The notes beneath the pieces were generated by a model. That model ran no database searches and had not been told where the DNA came from. It worked only from the letters and a program-made list of their open reading frames with translations. Positions 4,663-11,088 of a stretch of 64,000 nucleotides of DNA are shown in pieces. The position numbers were made by a program, and so were the translations under genes. Each line of letters starts with the position of its first letter. Position 1 is the stretch's first letter. The DNA is from Bacteroidota bacterium (GTDB taxonomy: Bacteria; Bacteroidota; Ignavibacteria; UBA10030; SZUA-254): positions 62,001-126,000 of the forward strand of contig JAGVIE010000023.1 of the NCBI GenBank assembly GCA_020056225.1, read 5' to 3'.

Positions 4663-6225
4663 ATGCCTGATTTCGTCAAACAACTAACTGTCGACAAGCG
4701 GATCGTACCGCTACTGAGCAAGTCTGCCTATCAGAGGAGCTTTGCATACGCCGTCCGTGAAATGGTAAGCAACGCCTATGATGCAGACGCAACAACAGTC
4801 CACATAACGATCGATCTAAAGGATGATGAGATTGTAATCGAAGACAATGGTAACGGAATGACAGTTGAAGAGTTTGACCACTACCTGAGAATTGCTGGTC
4901 AGAAGAGAGGTAGAAGAGAGAGCCCGAAGTTTGGCAGAAAGCGGATCGGGCAGTTTGGAGTGGGATTCCTCGCTGTTTTCCCCTTCTGCGAAACGCTTGA
5001 AATCACATCAACGGCTGAGAATTCGGATCAGTTGTTTACAGCAAAAGTGCCAGCATCAAAATTTTTCCGGGAAACGAGCAAGACAGAAGAAGTTGGTGAG
5101 TTAGATATCCCGGGATATATCTCACAAGACAAGAATAAGCGGAGCGACCATTACACACGATTGAGACTGCGAGGGCTGACGGATAACGCCAAGAGGTACT
5201 TTGACAGTAAACCTACCAAAGCTGATCGCAATAGCGTTCTTTCCTGGAAAGGGCTTGAGAAACTCAAGTGGGAATTACAGGAAGATCTCCCAATATCGTT
5301 CCCAACTAACTCGAAGCTTGGTAAACTACTTCCTTATTCTGAACCGTATGCTATGGAAGTTTACCTTCAAGGAGAAAAGATTTATCGAAACGACTGGGAG
5401 GGTGACATACTCGACCATGGAGAAATAACAGCTAGTGGTATCAGGTTCAGATACGCGATCATAACGGCTTGGAAGCCAGTCAAACCCCATCAAATGAGGG
5501 CACTCAAGATTCGAGTGAATAATGTTGGGGTGGGTCCCCGAGATAACTTTGACGTGGAAAGAACCCGGCGTTACAGTCGCTTTCACTGGTTAACAGGAGA
5601 AATACAGGTGCTTGGTGGATTGGATGATGCACTAACATTAAGTCGAGATTCATTTGTCGTAAGCTCTGAATACGAAGAATTCCGTGAGAAGATAGTGTCA
5701 CTCCTTAGGAAGCAAGCGGATTACATTGAGTTGGTGGATGTGGCGGCGAAGGACATGACTAAGCAAGTACGTGGTGGCAAACAGACACGGGTGGCTTCCA
5801 AACGAGACATTGTAGAAAAGAACATAAAGAAGTTGGTCGAGAAGGGATTTACGGTTAAGACGGCGGAGGTTGGTACTTTACTTCTTAGCGAGCCAGTGAA
5901 GGTAGATAAGGGCAAGAAAGAGGTCATTGTTATTGAAGGACACCCGGGGTTGGAGGATTCGATTACTGTCTCAGGTCGGAAGAAAAAGGTAGTCTATACA
6001 TCGTGGGATCCAAAGGGAGACGTAAGGTTTTCAGCCTGTAGAATAAATGATGTGGGGCAGATTGAAGTAAATACGCAGTACCCTCTGTTCAAATCAAAGA
6101 GATATGGAGAAGTATTCTTGAAAGTACACATACTAGCACTATTAGCCGCAGATGAATGCTTATCAGCAAAGCAAATGCATGAATTCCTCGTTCAGAATTT
6201 GCTGAAGGAATTTCAGGAGTTTTAA
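4663..6225 (+). CDS. GHKL (Hsp90/MutL/MORC-like) ATPase
   Basis: 520 residues. The N-terminal ATP-binding Bergerat fold is clear: N-box AVREMVSNAYDADA with Glu33 and Asn37, G1 box EDNGNGM at 60-66, and the G2/lid GRKRIGQFGVGFLAVF at 91-106. The arrangement is closer to MORC and other S5-linked GHKL proteins than to histidine kinases, because no HisKA or receiver part is present. The remaining 350 residues contain a transducer-like region and an unassigned C-terminal domain. GHKL ATPases of this kind dimerise on ATP binding and act as DNA clamps in MutL and MORC proteins; members linked to restriction-modification gene neighbourhoods were described by Iyer, Abhiman and Aravind. Here it sits between a DNA methyltransferase and an AAA ATPase (34-base gap). 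Confidence 0.82.
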   Translation: MPDFVKQLTVDKRIVPLLSKSAYQRSFAYAVREMVSNAYDADATTVHITIDLKDDEIVIEDNGNGMTVEEFDHYLRIAGQKRGRRESPKFGRKRIGQFGVGFLAVFPFCETLEITSTAENSDQLFTAKVPASKFFRETSKTEEVGELDIPGYISQDKNKRSDHYTRLRLRGLTDNAKRYFDSKPTKADRNSVLSWKGLEKLKWELQEDLPISFPTNSKLGKLLPYSEPYAMEVYLQGEKIYRNDWEGDILDHGEITASGIRFRYAIITAWKPVKPHQMRALKIRVNNVGVGPRDNFDVERTRRYSRFHWLTGEIQVLGGLDDALTLSRDSFVVSSEYEEFREKIVSLLRKQADYIELVDVAAKDMTKQVRGGKQTRVASKRDIVEKNIKKLVEKGFTVKTAEVGTLLLSEPVKVDKGKKEVIVIEGHPGLEDSITVSGRKKKVVYTSWDPKGDVRFSACRINDVGQIEVNTQYPLFKSKRYGEVFLKVHILALLAADECLSAKQMHEFLVQNLLKEFQEF

Positions 6226-6259
6226 CATCAACGATTGAATAAGATAAAGGAGATCAAGG

Positions 6260-7381
6260 ATGTACATTTCGCATTTTGAGATTAATAACTATCGAAGCCT
6301 TAAGGGAGTGAAAATCAATGGACTGCTCTCGGTATGCATTTTTCATGGCTTAAACAATTCAGGTAAATCAAATATCCTATCAGCTCTTGAGATGATCTTC
6401 AAGAGAAAGCTCGAAGAGGGAACACCGAATAAATGGCGTCCTGTGAGGTTCTGGCGAGGACGTATTGAAAACTTTACCGACAACTTCTTTAAAAACGATA
6501 GAAAAGATATTACGTTTTCTGTTACCGTTTCTTTTGAACATGCGGAGGTCGAGCCCTTCATGGAAATCCTGAAAAAGCTGAAGACTCATTTGGAGAAGCC
6601 GTCATATAAGAAAGACTTAACATTGGTTGGGCGTATAAAATACATAGATGAGCACATCGCAAATGCAGAACTTGAATGCGTTACACTAAACACGGATTAC
6701 AAGATAATGACATCGTCCGTTGGTAAAGGATTAGAATTATTCCCCGGTCTGAAGGATGTGTCAAATGAAAAAAAACTCCAGACCTTTGAAAGGATAATGG
6801 ATTTGATGAACGATTCTTTCGTCGTAATACCATCTAACAGATTTCTCACGACAGAGGCGGAATCAGGCAAAAAAGACTTGCCTATGACACCAAATACTTT
6901 TAAGGCATGGCTGTTCAATCTTTCGCTCGACCGATCTAAGTATTATATGTTTCAACAAATAAAGGACATTTTCAATGGAGAACCTTTCAAATTTGGTGAG
7001 TTGAGCTTCACACGGAATGATAACGAAATTGAAATCATGGTTGATAAGGATGGTGTTCGGCTTCCAATAAATAGGATGGGCTCAGGATTACAACAAATAC
7101 TCTTTTTAGTTTCGAATCTGGTATTATTGAAAGGCAAAATGGTCGGTATTGAGGAACTTGAAATCAATCTTTCTCCTACTGCGCAAATGCAGATATTTGA
7201 AAAAATCAAATCATACTTAAAAAAGGATAACAAACTAATAAGCCAAGTGATTATCACAAGTCACAGTGATTACTTCGGTGGCCGAGGAGATGTTAGATGC
7301 TACGAAACAAGCCATGATGGAGAGAAAACAATCGTGTCTAATTGGACTAATGCTATGCGCCGTGCATTTTTCAAACACTAA
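6260..7381 (+). CDS. OLD-like AAA/ABC-type ATPase without TOPRIM
   Basis: 373 residues. It begins MYISHFEINNYRSLKG, the usual start of RecF/SMC/OLD-type ATPases, with Walker A GLNNSGKSN at 30-38, a Walker B-like MVGIEELE at 294-301 and the switch His in ITSHSD at about 332-337. The protein ends soon after, so it lacks the TOPRIM nuclease domain of true OLD proteins and any visible nuclease. A strong Shine-Dalgarno (AAAGGAG) lies 9 bases before the ATG. It is third in the methyltransferase-GHKL-ATPase set. In comparable systems such ATPases sense or remodel DNA and activate a partner; here the partner is presumably the GHKL protein (inference). Confidence 0.82.
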   Translation: MYISHFEINNYRSLKGVKINGLLSVCIFHGLNNSGKSNILSALEMIFKRKLEEGTPNKWRPVRFWRGRIENFTDNFFKNDRKDITFSVTVSFEHAEVEPFMEILKKLKTHLEKPSYKKDLTLVGRIKYIDEHIANAELECVTLNTDYKIMTSSVGKGLELFPGLKDVSNEKKLQTFERIMDLMNDSFVVIPSNRFLTTEAESGKKDLPMTPNTFKAWLFNLSLDRSKYYMFQQIKDIFNGEPFKFGELSFTRNDNEIEIMVDKDGVRLPINRMGSGLQQILFLVSNLVLLKGKMVGIEELEINLSPTAQMQIFEKIKSYLKKDNKLISQVIITSHSDYFGGRGDVRCYETSHDGEKTIVSNWTNAMRRAFFKH

Positions 7382-7475
7382 CATAGGTTATCCTACTCAG
7401 TCGTTATCGAATAATTTGTGTACATCGCGAGTGAACTTCATTCCATGAAACTTTAACAGGCTCACCCCCCAACAC

Positions 7476-7541
7476 AAATCTAAAGTCGATGCCCTCTGGG
7501 ACAAATTCTGGTCTGGAGGTATTGCAGGTGTAATATCTCAG
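7476..7541 (+). pseudogene. Probable relic of a type I restriction methylase (hsdM) N-terminus
   Basis: In the 354-base gap after the AAA ATPase one frame reads KSKVDALWDKFWSGGIAG, closely resembling the N-terminal segment of many HsdM proteins (pattern KVxxLWDxFWSGGIxNPL). There is no start codon: an in-frame TGA lies just upstream at 7446-7448. After VISQ the similarity stops and the frame runs into a REP-like repeat. It looks like a short remnant of a former type I restriction locus. Recognition is from memory of the family, without alignment. Confidence 0.45.
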
Positions 7542-7550
7542 GGTTCATTG

Positions 7551-7603
7551 GGACTAAAGTCCATATATTTTTTTGATTGCTTACCACGTGCTAAAGCTCG
7601 TGG
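7551..7603. repeat. REP-like double palindrome
   Basis: Two palindromes lie 21 bases apart: GGACT-AA-AGTCC (7551-7562) and CCACGTGCT-AA-AGCTCGTGG (7584-7603), the latter an 8-bp stem with one T-T mismatch. The pairing of a GGACTnnAGTCC unit with a CCACG...CGTGG unit is the arrangement of bacterial REP/BIME-type repeats, which are usually mobilised by IS200-like RAYT transposases. None is encoded in this window. Confidence 0.55.
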
Positions 7604-7735
7604 CAATTTTTCCAAAAGGATAATAAGAATCAACGCCTTTCCATCCAGGTAAAATACATCAAATCAAGTTCACTGTCCGAAACATCAAACAGTTTTAATC
7701 GTAATTGCTTAGTAGTTACTCAATTTTATAAGCAA

Positions 7736-9007
7736 ATGCGATCTCCAAATTTCTCATCCACAATCATGCATCTTCCAATAGAAGCGTTGAAATCAGACTC
7801 CTTGGATCTGTGGCACGGTGTTTCTGCCGTTTCTCCGACACTAAATAGCTGCTACACGATTGATGACCAAGTTCTGAAAGAGGCAGAGGTTGAACGGCTG
7901 ATGCGCGATGTGGATGCTTCCATAGACGAGTTAAAAGCATCCGGACGTGCTGTGCGGAGACGAGCCACCGGAATACGAAGTCGGATTCAGCGTTCCATCG
8001 TCCAGCTCCTCCACAGCTTCGACTGCGTTATCGACGTCGACATGGAGCAATCTTTTTCAAGAGTTACCGATGAATTCATCGAACAGGCGTACGAGTTCGA
8101 TCCACAAATCAGCGAGGAAGCCATCTATCAGGCATCGAGGAACCTCCTGATCATGAACACGTTTCAGATGCACCTTGGGAAGGAGATTACACTTGCGCCA
8201 TCGGTCTTTGCATACAGCATGCTTTACCCGTACACCGATAACTACTTAGATGCTGTTGAGATTTCCGCACATGCGAAGCACGAACGGAATGAATGGCTGC
8301 TGCTTCGTCTATCCGGGATTGTGGCAACACCGCGGAACCGCCAAGAGCGAACCATCGATCGGCTTGCTGAAATGATCGAAGCCGAGTACGATCGGCATGT
8401 GTATCCTAACGTGTACGAGAGTCTTCTCGCGATTCATAAAGCACAGACGAGAAGCGTGGCACAGCAGTGCGGCGATCTTTCAGTTGATGAGCTGCTCGAT
8501 ATAAGTGTAGAAAAAGGAGGGACATCCGTTCTCGCGGATGGATACCTTGTGGCAGGGGAGCTATCGGCGGCTGACGCAGAGTTCTTCTTTCGGTTCGGAG
8601 TCTTGCTGCAGCTTATCGACGATCTGCAAGATCTTCAGGAAGATAGCTCTCTTCAACATCGAACGCTCGCGAACTGTGCAGTAGAAAAAGGAAAAATGGA
8701 AAATTTCACAGATAGGCTGCTGTCGTATGCCGATGTAGTTTTAAAATCCGCCCTTTCTCACCAACAGAAATTACGAACGTTGATCGAACGCAGTTGCCGG
8801 CTGTTGATCTTGGAGGCAATCGCATCCAATCACAACTACTACAGCGACCAGTACCTTCTAACTATGGAGCGGTGTGCACCGGTACGGTTCGAATATCTAA
8901 GAAGCGTGCAGCGACGATTTAAGGAAAGATACGATACTCATCAAGTCGAGGAGTTACGAAAGTATCGACGTTTTGGGATGCGGGCGAAAAAAGGAATTTT
9001 TGTATGA
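7736..9007 (+). CDS. Class I isoprenoid-synthase-fold enzyme (prenyl or terpene synthase-like)
   Basis: 423 residues, almost entirely helical. The C-terminal half contains VLLQLIDDLQDLQED, with D295-D296-x-x-D299 matching the Asp-rich metal-binding motif of class I prenyltransferases and terpene synthases. Before it, KGGTSVLADGYLVAGELS resembles the KGT region of trans-prenyltransferases. A candidate first acidic motif is TDNYLD at 167-172. The family as a whole is divergent, and the substrate (short-chain diphosphate, cyclisation or head-to-head condensation) cannot be told. No neighbouring gene belongs to an isoprenoid pathway. Codons look somewhat more GC-rich than in the surrounding genes, suggesting transfer. 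There is no good Shine-Dalgarno; Met11 is an alternative start. Confidence 0.6.
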   Translation: MRSPNFSSTIMHLPIEALKSDSLDLWHGVSAVSPTLNSCYTIDDQVLKEAEVERLMRDVDASIDELKASGRAVRRRATGIRSRIQRSIVQLLHSFDCVIDVDMEQSFSRVTDEFIEQAYEFDPQISEEAIYQASRNLLIMNTFQMHLGKEITLAPSVFAYSMLYPYTDNYLDAVEISAHAKHERNEWLLLRLSGIVATPRNRQERTIDRLAEMIEAEYDRHVYPNVYESLLAIHKAQTRSVAQQCGDLSVDELLDISVEKGGTSVLADGYLVAGELSAADAEFFFRFGVLLQLIDDLQDLQEDSSLQHRTLANCAVEKGKMENFTDRLLSYADVVLKSALSHQQKLRTLIERSCRLLILEAIASNHNYYSDQYLLTMERCAPVRFEYLRSVQRRFKERYDTHQVEELRKYRRFGMRAKKGIFV

Positions 9008-9030
9008 GGTAATTGGAGGGGTTTGAGCAC

Positions 9031-9069
9031 TACTTTTCCCCACGAGGAGGTGAAAATACAAAAGGGGTT
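9031..9069. repeat. Direct repeat, left copy, flanking DUF559 gene
   Basis: 39 bases beginning TACTTTTCCCC and ending AATACAAAAGGGGTT. It matches 9532-9570 at 36 of 39 positions by eye. The core is an inverted repeat (TTTTCCCC around CGAGGAGG), imperfect in this copy. It lies 11 bases before the start of the DUF559 gene. Confidence 0.75.
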
Positions 9070-9080
9070 GAAACGATTAT

Positions 9081-9476
9081 ATGACTGAAATATTCAATAA
9101 AAAAGAAATGAAGGAGAGACGACAGTCTCTTCGCAATCAAGCGACAGATACAGAAATACTTTTATGGGAACGCATCCGTAAAAAACAAGTGCTTGGTGTT
9201 CGCTTTCGTAGGCAATTCAGTATCGGTCACTATATCGTTGATTTCTATTCTCCTAAGATTAAACTTGCTATAGAGATAGATGGTAAAAGCCATGATCGAG
9301 AATCAAAACGAGAATATGATTCAACTCGCGAGGAAGAAATCAAGCAGCTTGGCATCAACATGCTCAGGTTTAGAAACCACGAAGTCCTCGAAGATATGGA
9401 TGGAGTCGTACGGAAAATTGAGACTGCGGTAAAAACATTAACCGTTAGCAAGGACGAACCGGCAAAAGTTCTTTGA
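9081..9476 (+). CDS. DUF559 (Vsr/PD-(D/E)XK-like) endonuclease-domain protein
   Basis: 131 residues. It has the DUF559 signature: ATDTEILLWERIRKKQVLGVRFRRQ (family pattern TxxExxLWxxLR...GxxFRRQ) at 21-45, followed by YIVDFYSP with Asp54 and AIEIDGKSH with Glu65, Asp67 and His71, the likely metal-binding residues of a very-short-patch-repair-like nuclease core. The family is widespread, and its members are often solitary with unknown targets. The gene sits alone between two copies of a 39-bp direct repeat, and a strong hairpin follows its stop. A repeat-associated mobile or selfish unit is inferred. Confidence 0.85.
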   Translation: MTEIFNKKEMKERRQSLRNQATDTEILLWERIRKKQVLGVRFRRQFSIGHYIVDFYSPKIKLAIEIDGKSHDRESKREYDSTREEEIKQLGINMLRFRNHEVLEDMDGVVRKIETAVKTLTVSKDEPAKVL

Positions 9477-9485
9477 CCCCCTGTA

Positions 9486-9506
9486 GTCCCCCTTCGTAAG
9501 GGGGAC
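9486..9506. terminator. Strong 9-bp hairpin after DUF559 gene
   Basis: GTCCCCCTT-CGT-AAGGGGGAC is a perfect 9-bp stem with a three-base loop, starting 9 bases after the DUF559 stop. It has no T-run, so it may be a structural part of the repeat unit rather than a classical terminator. Confidence 0.45.
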
Positions 9507-9531
9507 GGTTTCACAATGCTATGTGCGCCAA

Positions 9532-9570
9532 TACTTTTCCCCTCGAGGAGGGGAAAATACAAAAGGGGTC
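9532..9570. repeat. Direct repeat, right copy, flanking DUF559 gene
   Basis: 39 bases matching 9031-9069 at 36 of 39 positions. In this copy the inverted core is perfect: TTTTCCCCTC-GAG-GAGGGGAAAA (10-bp arms). It ends 24 bases before the pepA stop codon. Confidence 0.75.
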
Positions 9571-9594
9571 AGATAAGGCAAGGTATGAACTAGT

Positions 9595-11088
9595 TTATTT
9601 CCAATTCTTCAAAAACTCCACAAGCAACCTGACGCCAACACCTGAGCCGCCTTTGGGTGCGTACGGGTGTTGCTCTTCGAGCATCGCAGTGCCGGCGATA
9701 TCGAGATGAACCCACTTGTAATCGCCTATAAATTTCTTCAGGAAAAATCCTGCGGTGATTGCACCTGCCCATTTGCCGCCAACATTCTTTACATCGGCAA
9801 TGTCGCTCTTGATTTGTTTTTCGTATTCATCGAAGAGCGGTAACTGCCAAACCCGCTCAAAAGTTTTATCGCCTGCGGTTTTCAACTTTGCCATCAATTC
9901 TTCATCGTTACCCATCATACCGGTTGCGTGCATACCAAGAGCTACAACACAGGCACCCGTGAGTGTCGCAAGATCGATGACGGCTTTTGGTTTATATGTT
10001 GCCGCATACGCTAATGCATCAGCAAGTATGAGCCGACCTTCAGCATCGGTATTATCAACTTCAGATGTCTTGCCGCCGTAATGTTTGATGATGTCGCCGG
10101 GTTTCATTGCCGAGCCGCTCGGTAGATTTTCTGTCGCTGGAATTAAGCCAACAAGGTGAACTGGCAATTTCAATCGCACTGCCGCTTCCATTGTTCCGAT
10201 AACAGCCGCCGCACCCGACATATCCATCTTCATCTCTGCCATACCGCTTGATGGTTTGATGGAGATACCACCGCTGTCGAAGGTGACACCTTTTCCAACC
10301 AACACAATAGTATCGAGGTCTTTCTTGTTAGAATTGTGCTCAAGGATGATAAAGCGTGGAGGTTTTGTACTGCCTGCGTTCACAGCGAGGAGGCCGCCGA
10401 ATTCTTCCCTCTCAATTTTCTTTTTATCCCAGATCGTTATGTTGTATCCGTATTGCTCGGCAGATTTCTTAGCTGTATCTGCCAATGTCTCGGGATAAAT
10501 CTCGCAGGCAGGGGCGTTCGCAAGGTCTCTTGCTAAAGTTGTCGCTTCACAAATTATGCGGACATCGTTTAGTTCTTTCTTTACATCTTTGACGGTTGAC
10601 TCGGCAGGATCGAAAATTGTAATTTCGGTAATTCTGCTCTGCTCGTCTTTCTTTTTCGTCTGGTATTTATCGAATTTGTAGAGCGAGAGGTAAGCACCTT
10701 CGGCAATAGCATGAGAGATTTTACCGGTCTCGGTTTGACCAAAAGCCGGAAGATTAAACGCAAGATGTTTAATGCGTGATGCTTGTGCCTGTCTTGCAAC
10801 GGCGGCAGATGCACGGCGGTAGCTTTCATGAGAAAGTTTTTTCTCTTCACCGAGTCCGGCAAGATATAATCGTGGAGCGGTTAATTTCTTTTCCGTCAGG
10901 ATGGAAAGAACCTCAGCTACCTTTCCTTTAAAGTTTTCAAGCGAGATGATAGTATCGATTCTCTTTCCCAGAATCTTCCTTAGATAGGCAATATCCTGTT
11001 GGAAAAGTTTTTTATCTTCCCGGATAAAAACCGTGACGGCATCTGCCTTTACCTGTCGTAATGTCGATTTCTGTGCTGTTAATCTCAT
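9595..11088 (-). CDS. pepA: Leucyl aminopeptidase (M17)
   Basis: 497 residues, the usual length of the family. The catalytic C-terminal domain carries VGKGVTFDSGGISIKPSSGM at about 263-282 (metal-binding Lys and Asp) and NTDAEGRLILADAL at about 345-358 (Asp and Glu ligands plus the bicarbonate-site Arg). The N-terminal domain is more divergent. The enzyme is a cytosolic two-metal exopeptidase that removes N-terminal residues in peptide turnover. It lies 122 bases downstream of nrnA on the same strand and may share its transcript. No terminator with a T-run was seen beyond the stop. Confidence 0.93.
   Translation of the reverse strand: MRLTAQKSTLRQVKADAVTVFIREDKKLFQQDIAYLRKILGKRIDTIISLENFKGKVAEVLSILTEKKLTAPRLYLAGLGEEKKLSHESYRRASAAVARQAQASRIKHLAFNLPAFGQTETGKISHAIAEGAYLSLYKFDKYQTKKKDEQSRITEITIFDPAESTVKDVKKELNDVRIICEATTLARDLANAPACEIYPETLADTAKKSAEQYGYNITIWDKKKIEREEFGGLLAVNAGSTKPPRFIILEHNSNKKDLDTIVLVGKGVTFDSGGISIKPSSGMAEMKMDMSGAAAVIGTMEAAVRLKLPVHLVGLIPATENLPSGSAMKPGDIIKHYGGKTSEVDNTDAEGRLILADALAYAATYKPKAVIDLATLTGACVVALGMHATGMMGNDEELMAKLKTAGDKTFERVWQLPLFDEYEKQIKSDIADVKNVGGKWAGAITAGFFLKKFIGDYKWVHLDIAGTAMLEEQHPYAPKGGSGVGVRLLVEFLKNWK

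Follow-up and report, generated by a model that had tools for sequence, protein, structure and literature searches.

Repeats of the BoxC kind have been known since the 1990s, and to our knowledge their origin has not been accounted for. A 2015 survey of BoxC, PIT and TMECO (PMC4666352) presents these triplex motifs (TMs) as widespread in bacteria, saw no gene for mobility around those of E. coli, and reports triplex formation for the E. coli motif and blocking of polymerases in vitro by TM-type elements. In the REPtron, a RAYT enzyme gene lies between short repetitive extragenic palindromes (REPs) carrying a GTAG tag (PMC3733652). Two further papers already treat DUF559 proteins as Vsr-like nucleases (PMC1189080, PMC12907096). 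Here we describe a locus in a 64,000-nt stretch of an Ignavibacteria genome (Bacteroidota; contig JAGVIE010000023.1, positions 62,001 to 126,000; hereafter the window) at which a DUF559 gene is flanked by TMs. We favor the reading, with a probability of about 0.58, that this unit is a mobile element made up of one Vsr-like nuclease gene and its TMs, in which the nuclease would act on the TM and repair would spread the unit.

The two near-identical repeats that the first-pass annotation had seen on either side of the gene are present: P1 and P1' are direct repeats of 41 nt with 93% identity, and BLAST aligned the left and right flanks of the gene with an E value of 5e-12 (Table 1). The spacing between repeat and gene is 12 nt on the upstream side and 52 nt on the downstream side, rather than the 11 and 56 first given, a difference that comes from setting the repeat ends slightly differently. 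A tight pattern for the P1 repeat has only two matches in the 3.5-Mb genome of this organism, both at the window locus. Read 5' to 3', P1' is TTTTCCCCTC-gag-GAGGGGAAAA-tac-AAAAGGGGT, in which a block of pyrimidines is followed by its complement and then by a third, purine block that mirrors the second if T is allowed for A. The inverted core once ascribed to both repeats holds for P1', which has a perfect 10-bp stem (fold z -4.35), but P1 has lost two stem pairs and folds no better than shuffled sequences (z +0.59), while retaining its third block. The strong 9-bp hairpin reported between the repeats was recovered as GTCCCCCTT-CGT-AAGGGGGAC (-9.8 kcal/mol for its stretch, z -4.0), and proved to belong to a second TM, P2, oriented opposite to P1 and P1'. 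Pyrimidine block, purine block and mirror third block joined by short loops, the pattern that defines BoxC-type TMs, are found in P1' and P2 and in degenerate form in P1; by sequence, the repeats are intrastrand-triplex-type motifs of the BoxC kind. P2 and P1' pair as a 96-bp tail-out doublet after the gene, and the order of the unit is therefore P1> gene <P2 P1>. The third hairpin is thus part of the unit, and the repeats do not simply mark the two ends of a single transposon. Of the short exact target duplication at both ends that a DDE insertion sequence or a MITE would show, no instance was found in the window, although the doublet does have the matching ends GACCCC and GGGGTC.

Table 1. 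The DUF559 unit and the adjoining gene, in window coordinates
Feature	Position	Strand	Remarks
Left triplex-motif repeat P1	9028..9068	+	Blocks 9034-9043, 9047-9056, 9060-9068; hairpin degenerate
DUF559 (Vsr-like PD-(D/E)XK) predicted nuclease gene	9081..9476	+	131 aa; stop codon overlaps start of right doublet
Tail-out doublet, 96 bp	9475..9570	no strand	Ends GACCCC...GGGGTC; gene-less copies G007:C6, G007:C7, G008:C30
Triplex-motif repeat P2, leftward-pointing	9475..9506	-	9-bp hairpin 9486-9506; third block 9475-9483
Right repeat copy P1'	9529..9569	+	Blocks 9535-9544, 9548-9557, 9561-9569
pepA (M17 leucyl aminopeptidase), neighbor	9595..11088	-	3'-end site free of DUF559 in 11/11 other family genomes read

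The gene is indeed DUF559, as first annotated: a profile search matched it to PF04480 with an E value of 1.2e-32 and 112.5 bits, against a curated cut-off of 20.6. Its protein matches the solved relative 3hrl in sequence (E 4.4e-16) and carries all five of the residues that are invariant in 14 aligned relatives (E25, D54, E65, H71 and D80). No HUH Y1 transposase is among its Pfam matches, all four of which are nuclease families or DUF2726. By profile and residues, the window protein belongs to the Vsr-like PD-(D/E)XK family and is a predicted nuclease.

For a survey of similar loci, 160 DUF559 genes were gathered from 80 relatives on named genome contigs, 29 loci in 60 related genomes, 40 further stretches, the loci of the window's own genome, and two named records; 130 standalone loci were usable, and 30 were dropped for a frame longer than 800 nt or a contig end less than 150 nt away. 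The sample is uneven, since similarity to the window protein was the basis for choosing the 80 named loci and most of the others belong to a single order. Of the 130 genes, 88 have a TM less than 300 bp away on the upstream side and 67 on the downstream side, compared with 27/988 control windows from other parts of these loci; an earlier count restricted to GC-rich palindromes had given 54/84 upstream and 43/84 downstream (controls, 51/890). The mirror third block was found at 212 of 548 hairpin sides (39%), compared with 5% for shuffled tails and 15% for tails swapped between loci. The nearest TM points at the gene more often than away from it, both upstream (52 versus 17) and downstream (44 versus 19), and neighboring TM pairs on one side of a gene are mostly tail-out (25 versus 6). 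Brackets of direct repeats scoring 50 bits or more were found at 46/130 genes and brackets of inverted repeats at 4/130 (controls, 1/200 and 1/117). Direct bracketing is general, but the repeats are TMs and not the terminal repeats of a simple transposon. Given this excess of direct over inverted brackets, an inverted-repeat transposon was rejected as the general layout, even though the nearest TMs point inward. The pairing of TMs with DUF559 spans phyla whose TM sequences differ widely, and across 92 loci the similarity of nucleases and that of TMs co-vary (Mantel rho 0.26; 0/500 permutations). Recurrence across many bacterial groups suggests that DUF559 nucleases move, or move with, BoxC-like repeats.

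Within the window's own genome there are five PF04480 matches. Besides the window gene beside pepA, DUF559 loci adjoin a TldD/PmbA-family gene (L002), a small gene (L004) and serS (L005); the fifth match is partial and corresponds to a Vsr gene (PF03852, E 6.4e-20). Across the 3.5 Mb, the palindrome CCCCTC-N2-9-GAGGGG was found six times and its reversed control not at all. All six lie within about 300 bp of a DUF559 or Vsr-like gene, and one of them (L006) belongs to a motif pair without a gene: at L006:1477-2241, the Vsr gene stands about 130 bp from a gene-less TM pair, adjoining the 3' end of another gene.

Presence of the gene is patchy. DUF559 occurs in 33 of the 60 related genomes, own genome included, at 0 to 11 copies each, and hairpin counts above those of a control pattern were found in 21/33 genomes with DUF559 and 3/27 without it (Fisher p 4.6e-5, kinship ignored). 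At the site following pepA, 12 family genomes were compared and the own genome alone holds DUF559, with fewer than 300 nt readable in two of the other 11. At the serS site, the own genome is again the only one of 16 with DUF559, and in G007 and G013 a lone TM directly follows the serS stop codon. A comparison of this kind, for empty sites with a single repeat, is what the first-pass annotation had called for. Gene-less copies of the doublet are found in G007 (contig C6) and in G008 (C30), in the latter case several hundred bases from a DUF559 gene. Patchy presence, empty sites, a lone repeat and gene-less doublets lend substance to the compact, mobile-looking unit first described; the comparisons establish these features together with the anatomy and the recurrence across phyla, and they support the mobility of a nuclease-plus-TM unit. 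Genome G055 stands far above its relatives, with 89 CCCCTC..GAGGGG hairpins and 4 DUF559 genes in 3 Mb, and at L132 (G041:C87:15000-20000) two same-strand DUF559 matches lie about 200 bp apart. In viral contigs, the query used found no DUF559 relative.

At several loci the DUF559 unit adjoins one end of a host gene, and the last or first codons of that gene are present twice, in diverged form; gene-end duplications of 48-63 nt were seen in such units. The host genes are serS (L005), a small gene (L004), uvrA (L107), clpB (L125, L133), hsdR (L046), a gene identified by sequence as a protein kinase (L141, L150) and a radical-SAM gene of the CofH/MqnC type (L134). At L141 and L150, the stop codon of the nuclease overlaps the ATG of the kinase. 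When the duplicated ends were compared by tblastn, synonymous and nonsynonymous differences numbered, for example, 4/1 at L125, 9/4 at L107, 17/10 at L150, 12/6 at L141, and 7/2 and 8/5 at L005; synonymous changes equal or exceed nonsynonymous ones in most pairs, while L134 (4/12) goes the other way. Such a preponderance would fit either a gene end of foreign origin or a target duplication followed by drift. The start of clpB was located in 53/60 genomes and read in 30, 26 of these by a start-motif scan with upstream tblastn for DUF559 only. DUF559 was found there in two genomes of different families (G024 and G010), near the same place, and G046, which shares its genus with G024, has at this site an insert with TMs only and a clpB remnant. 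Upstream of clpB at L209 lies a small, putatively toxin-antitoxin-like insert with the gene end duplicated and neither DUF559 nor a TM.

We infer that the nuclease acts on the TMs. It would recognize its own TM, as a hairpin or a triplex in single-stranded DNA, for example at a replication fork, and nick or cut there; host repair would then copy the whole unit, or the bare doublet, to a new place; and recombination between the direct repeats could later delete the gene, with a single repeat left behind. The overall analogue would be the REPtron or a free-standing homing endonuclease, with unrelated repeats and, relative to the REPtron, an unrelated enzyme. Like the REPtron, the unit has one enzyme gene between short palindromes and gene-less palindrome doublets elsewhere, but its enzyme is a PD-(D/E)XK, Vsr-like nuclease where the REPtron has an HUH Y1 transposase, a third triplex block is present, and the GTAG tag is absent from the hairpin foot, the window repeat ending in AAAAGGGGT. 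The CGTC REPs (PMC3733652), with AT-starting stems and a CGTC tag, were dropped as candidates for the same repeats, as the window repeats have neither trait; CGTC repeats near DUF559 genes were not searched. The window-type TMs resemble BoxC, PIT and TMECO (PMC4666352) in combining a hairpin with a mirror third block, in forming inverted heterodimers from two motif types, in lying between genes and in occurring in many bacteria, and they differ in being tied to DUF559 genes. Our literature search, whose reach excluded most subscription papers, found no publication joining DUF559 to TMs, and a term search of the RepRanger REP paper (PMC12306157) returned no endonuclease, RAYT, BoxC or DUF. A mobile intron, an intein and a known RNA were rejected, Rfam giving no match in 8500-10200 and the gene standing alone between genes.

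A number of observations weigh against a mobile nuclease-plus-TM element. By a stricter rule, a TM of any kind is found at 99 of the 130 loci and none at 31, and the hairpins at L002 lack the third block. G003 has nine TM-type hairpins and no DUF559, and raw hairpin counts, with the control not subtracted, correlate with DUF559 at rho 0.22 (p 0.09); repeats without the gene do therefore occur, but they are linked to DUF559 genes much more often than chance would give, and empty sites were found. The pepA empty site comes from family-level genomes, none of the same genus, and is not base-exact. Covariation of nuclease and repeat within genomes is not significant (73/500), which leaves the case for nuclease-TM specificity weak. 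Three further observations also speak for DUF559 as a passenger, one of several small cargo genes among TMs that are mobilized otherwise or are old recombination hot spots: contig C7 of G007 has the order P1> .. <P2 P1> around a 200-nt non-DUF559 stretch; G052, of the genus of G024 and G046, has a clpB remnant and a gene-end insert with neither DUF559 nor TM, its frame being presumably DUF433-like; and about 700 nt past the serS element at L005 lies a small, putatively toxin-antitoxin-like insert, which duplicates the gene end and is likewise devoid of both. Duplication of gene ends is accordingly not peculiar to DUF559. We nevertheless consider a passenger role unlikely, as the pairing with DUF559 persists across phyla despite quite different TM sequences, and the TMs are preferentially oriented inward.

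DUF559 could also be a housekeeping enzyme, structure specific or for mismatch repair, that resolves hairpin or triplex DNA and owes its place beside TMs to regulation or selection rather than to mobility. Its Vsr-like nature is in keeping with this, as are the tie of Caulobacter VsrA to DNA damage, with mismatch repair proposed (PMC12907096), and the polymerase blocking reported in PMC4666352, but the patchy copy number of 0 to 11, the empty sites and the insertions that displace host gene ends make such a role improbable. I-Bth0305I is an EDxHD, or Vsr-like, homing endonuclease, and the DUF559 gene might belong to an ordinary free-standing enzyme of this sort that targets gene ends (clpB, serS, uvrA, hsdR), the TMs being mere terminators. 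The two share a nuclease superfamily and selfish insertion in or beside host genes, PMC9403480 includes homing enzymes in the EDxHD class, and insertion at nearly the same place in clpB in two families is what homing would give. A terminator, however, needs neither a third block nor mirror geometry, gene-less TM inserts occur at the same clpB site in G046 and elsewhere, and the window unit is TM flanked with no intron or intein; we allow this explanation only a slim chance.

An extension of the mobile nuclease-plus-TM reading, which we put forward tentatively and think somewhat less probable than its failure, is that DUF559 nucleases supply the mobility function that has been missing for BoxC and other triplex repeats. 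Each would recognize its own triplex-forming hairpin, spread bare pairs nonautonomously and land at gene ends, leaving the terminal codons complete, and YcjD would be the BoxC enzyme of E. coli. YcjD is DUF559 by annotation. E. coli H240 has 19 places matching a pattern that we take to be BoxC, built from the published description and not from the 56-bp consensus itself (reversed control, 0), and one of them lies 204 nt past the ycjD match. The E. coli locus thus resembles the window in having a DUF559 gene with a BoxC copy between ycjD and fabI, and differs in having one such gene for 19 BoxC-pattern copies in the strain scanned. The sapF-ycjD-fabI stretch is covered to at least 80% in 3333/5426 E. 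coli genomes; in SCU-123, an efflux operon occupies the same place, with no ycjD and no BoxC between the operon and fabI. At the sapF-fabI locus (L205, L206), ycjD with BoxC and the eef efflux operon appear as alternative alleles, and the same two alleles are reported in PMC12817139. In Neisseria gonorrhoeae, triplex-type hairpins lie downstream of the DUF559 locus, whose flanks share a near-identical stretch holding one such hairpin. In four records of Azospirillum brasilense megaplasmids, DUF559 is accompanied by a tail-out TM pair or by a single TM upstream; no empty site was found there, the seven records with at least 80% of the region covering it nearly whole.

If a nuclease partner is real, it would explain the spread of BoxC and other TMs, assign a role to DUF559, which continues to be classed as a family of unknown function, and constitute a second REP-like system that could be put to the test in E. 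coli K-12. The gene-end units would in addition point to a way of inserting small genes that leaves the host gene complete.

DUF559 domains also occur in other settings. At four checked loci (L024, L031, L040 and L058), DUF559 lies in frame inside the type I restriction protein HsdR, where it separates the N-terminal nuclease domain from the helicase domains, and the same arrangement was assigned by frame length only at L029, L037, L039, L042, L044, L045 and L063; in most of these cases a palindrome such as TCCCTCCC-NNN-GGGAGGGA stands shortly before DUF559. At L013:2932-4164 and L028:2956-4032, DUF559 shares one open frame with an Aldolase_II domain. Ahead of the unit, window positions 4663-9007 hold a GHKL-ATPase gene, an AAA gene most like AriA (PADLOC, E 5.6e-33) and a 423-aa orphan with no Pfam match, which is perhaps a defense cluster.
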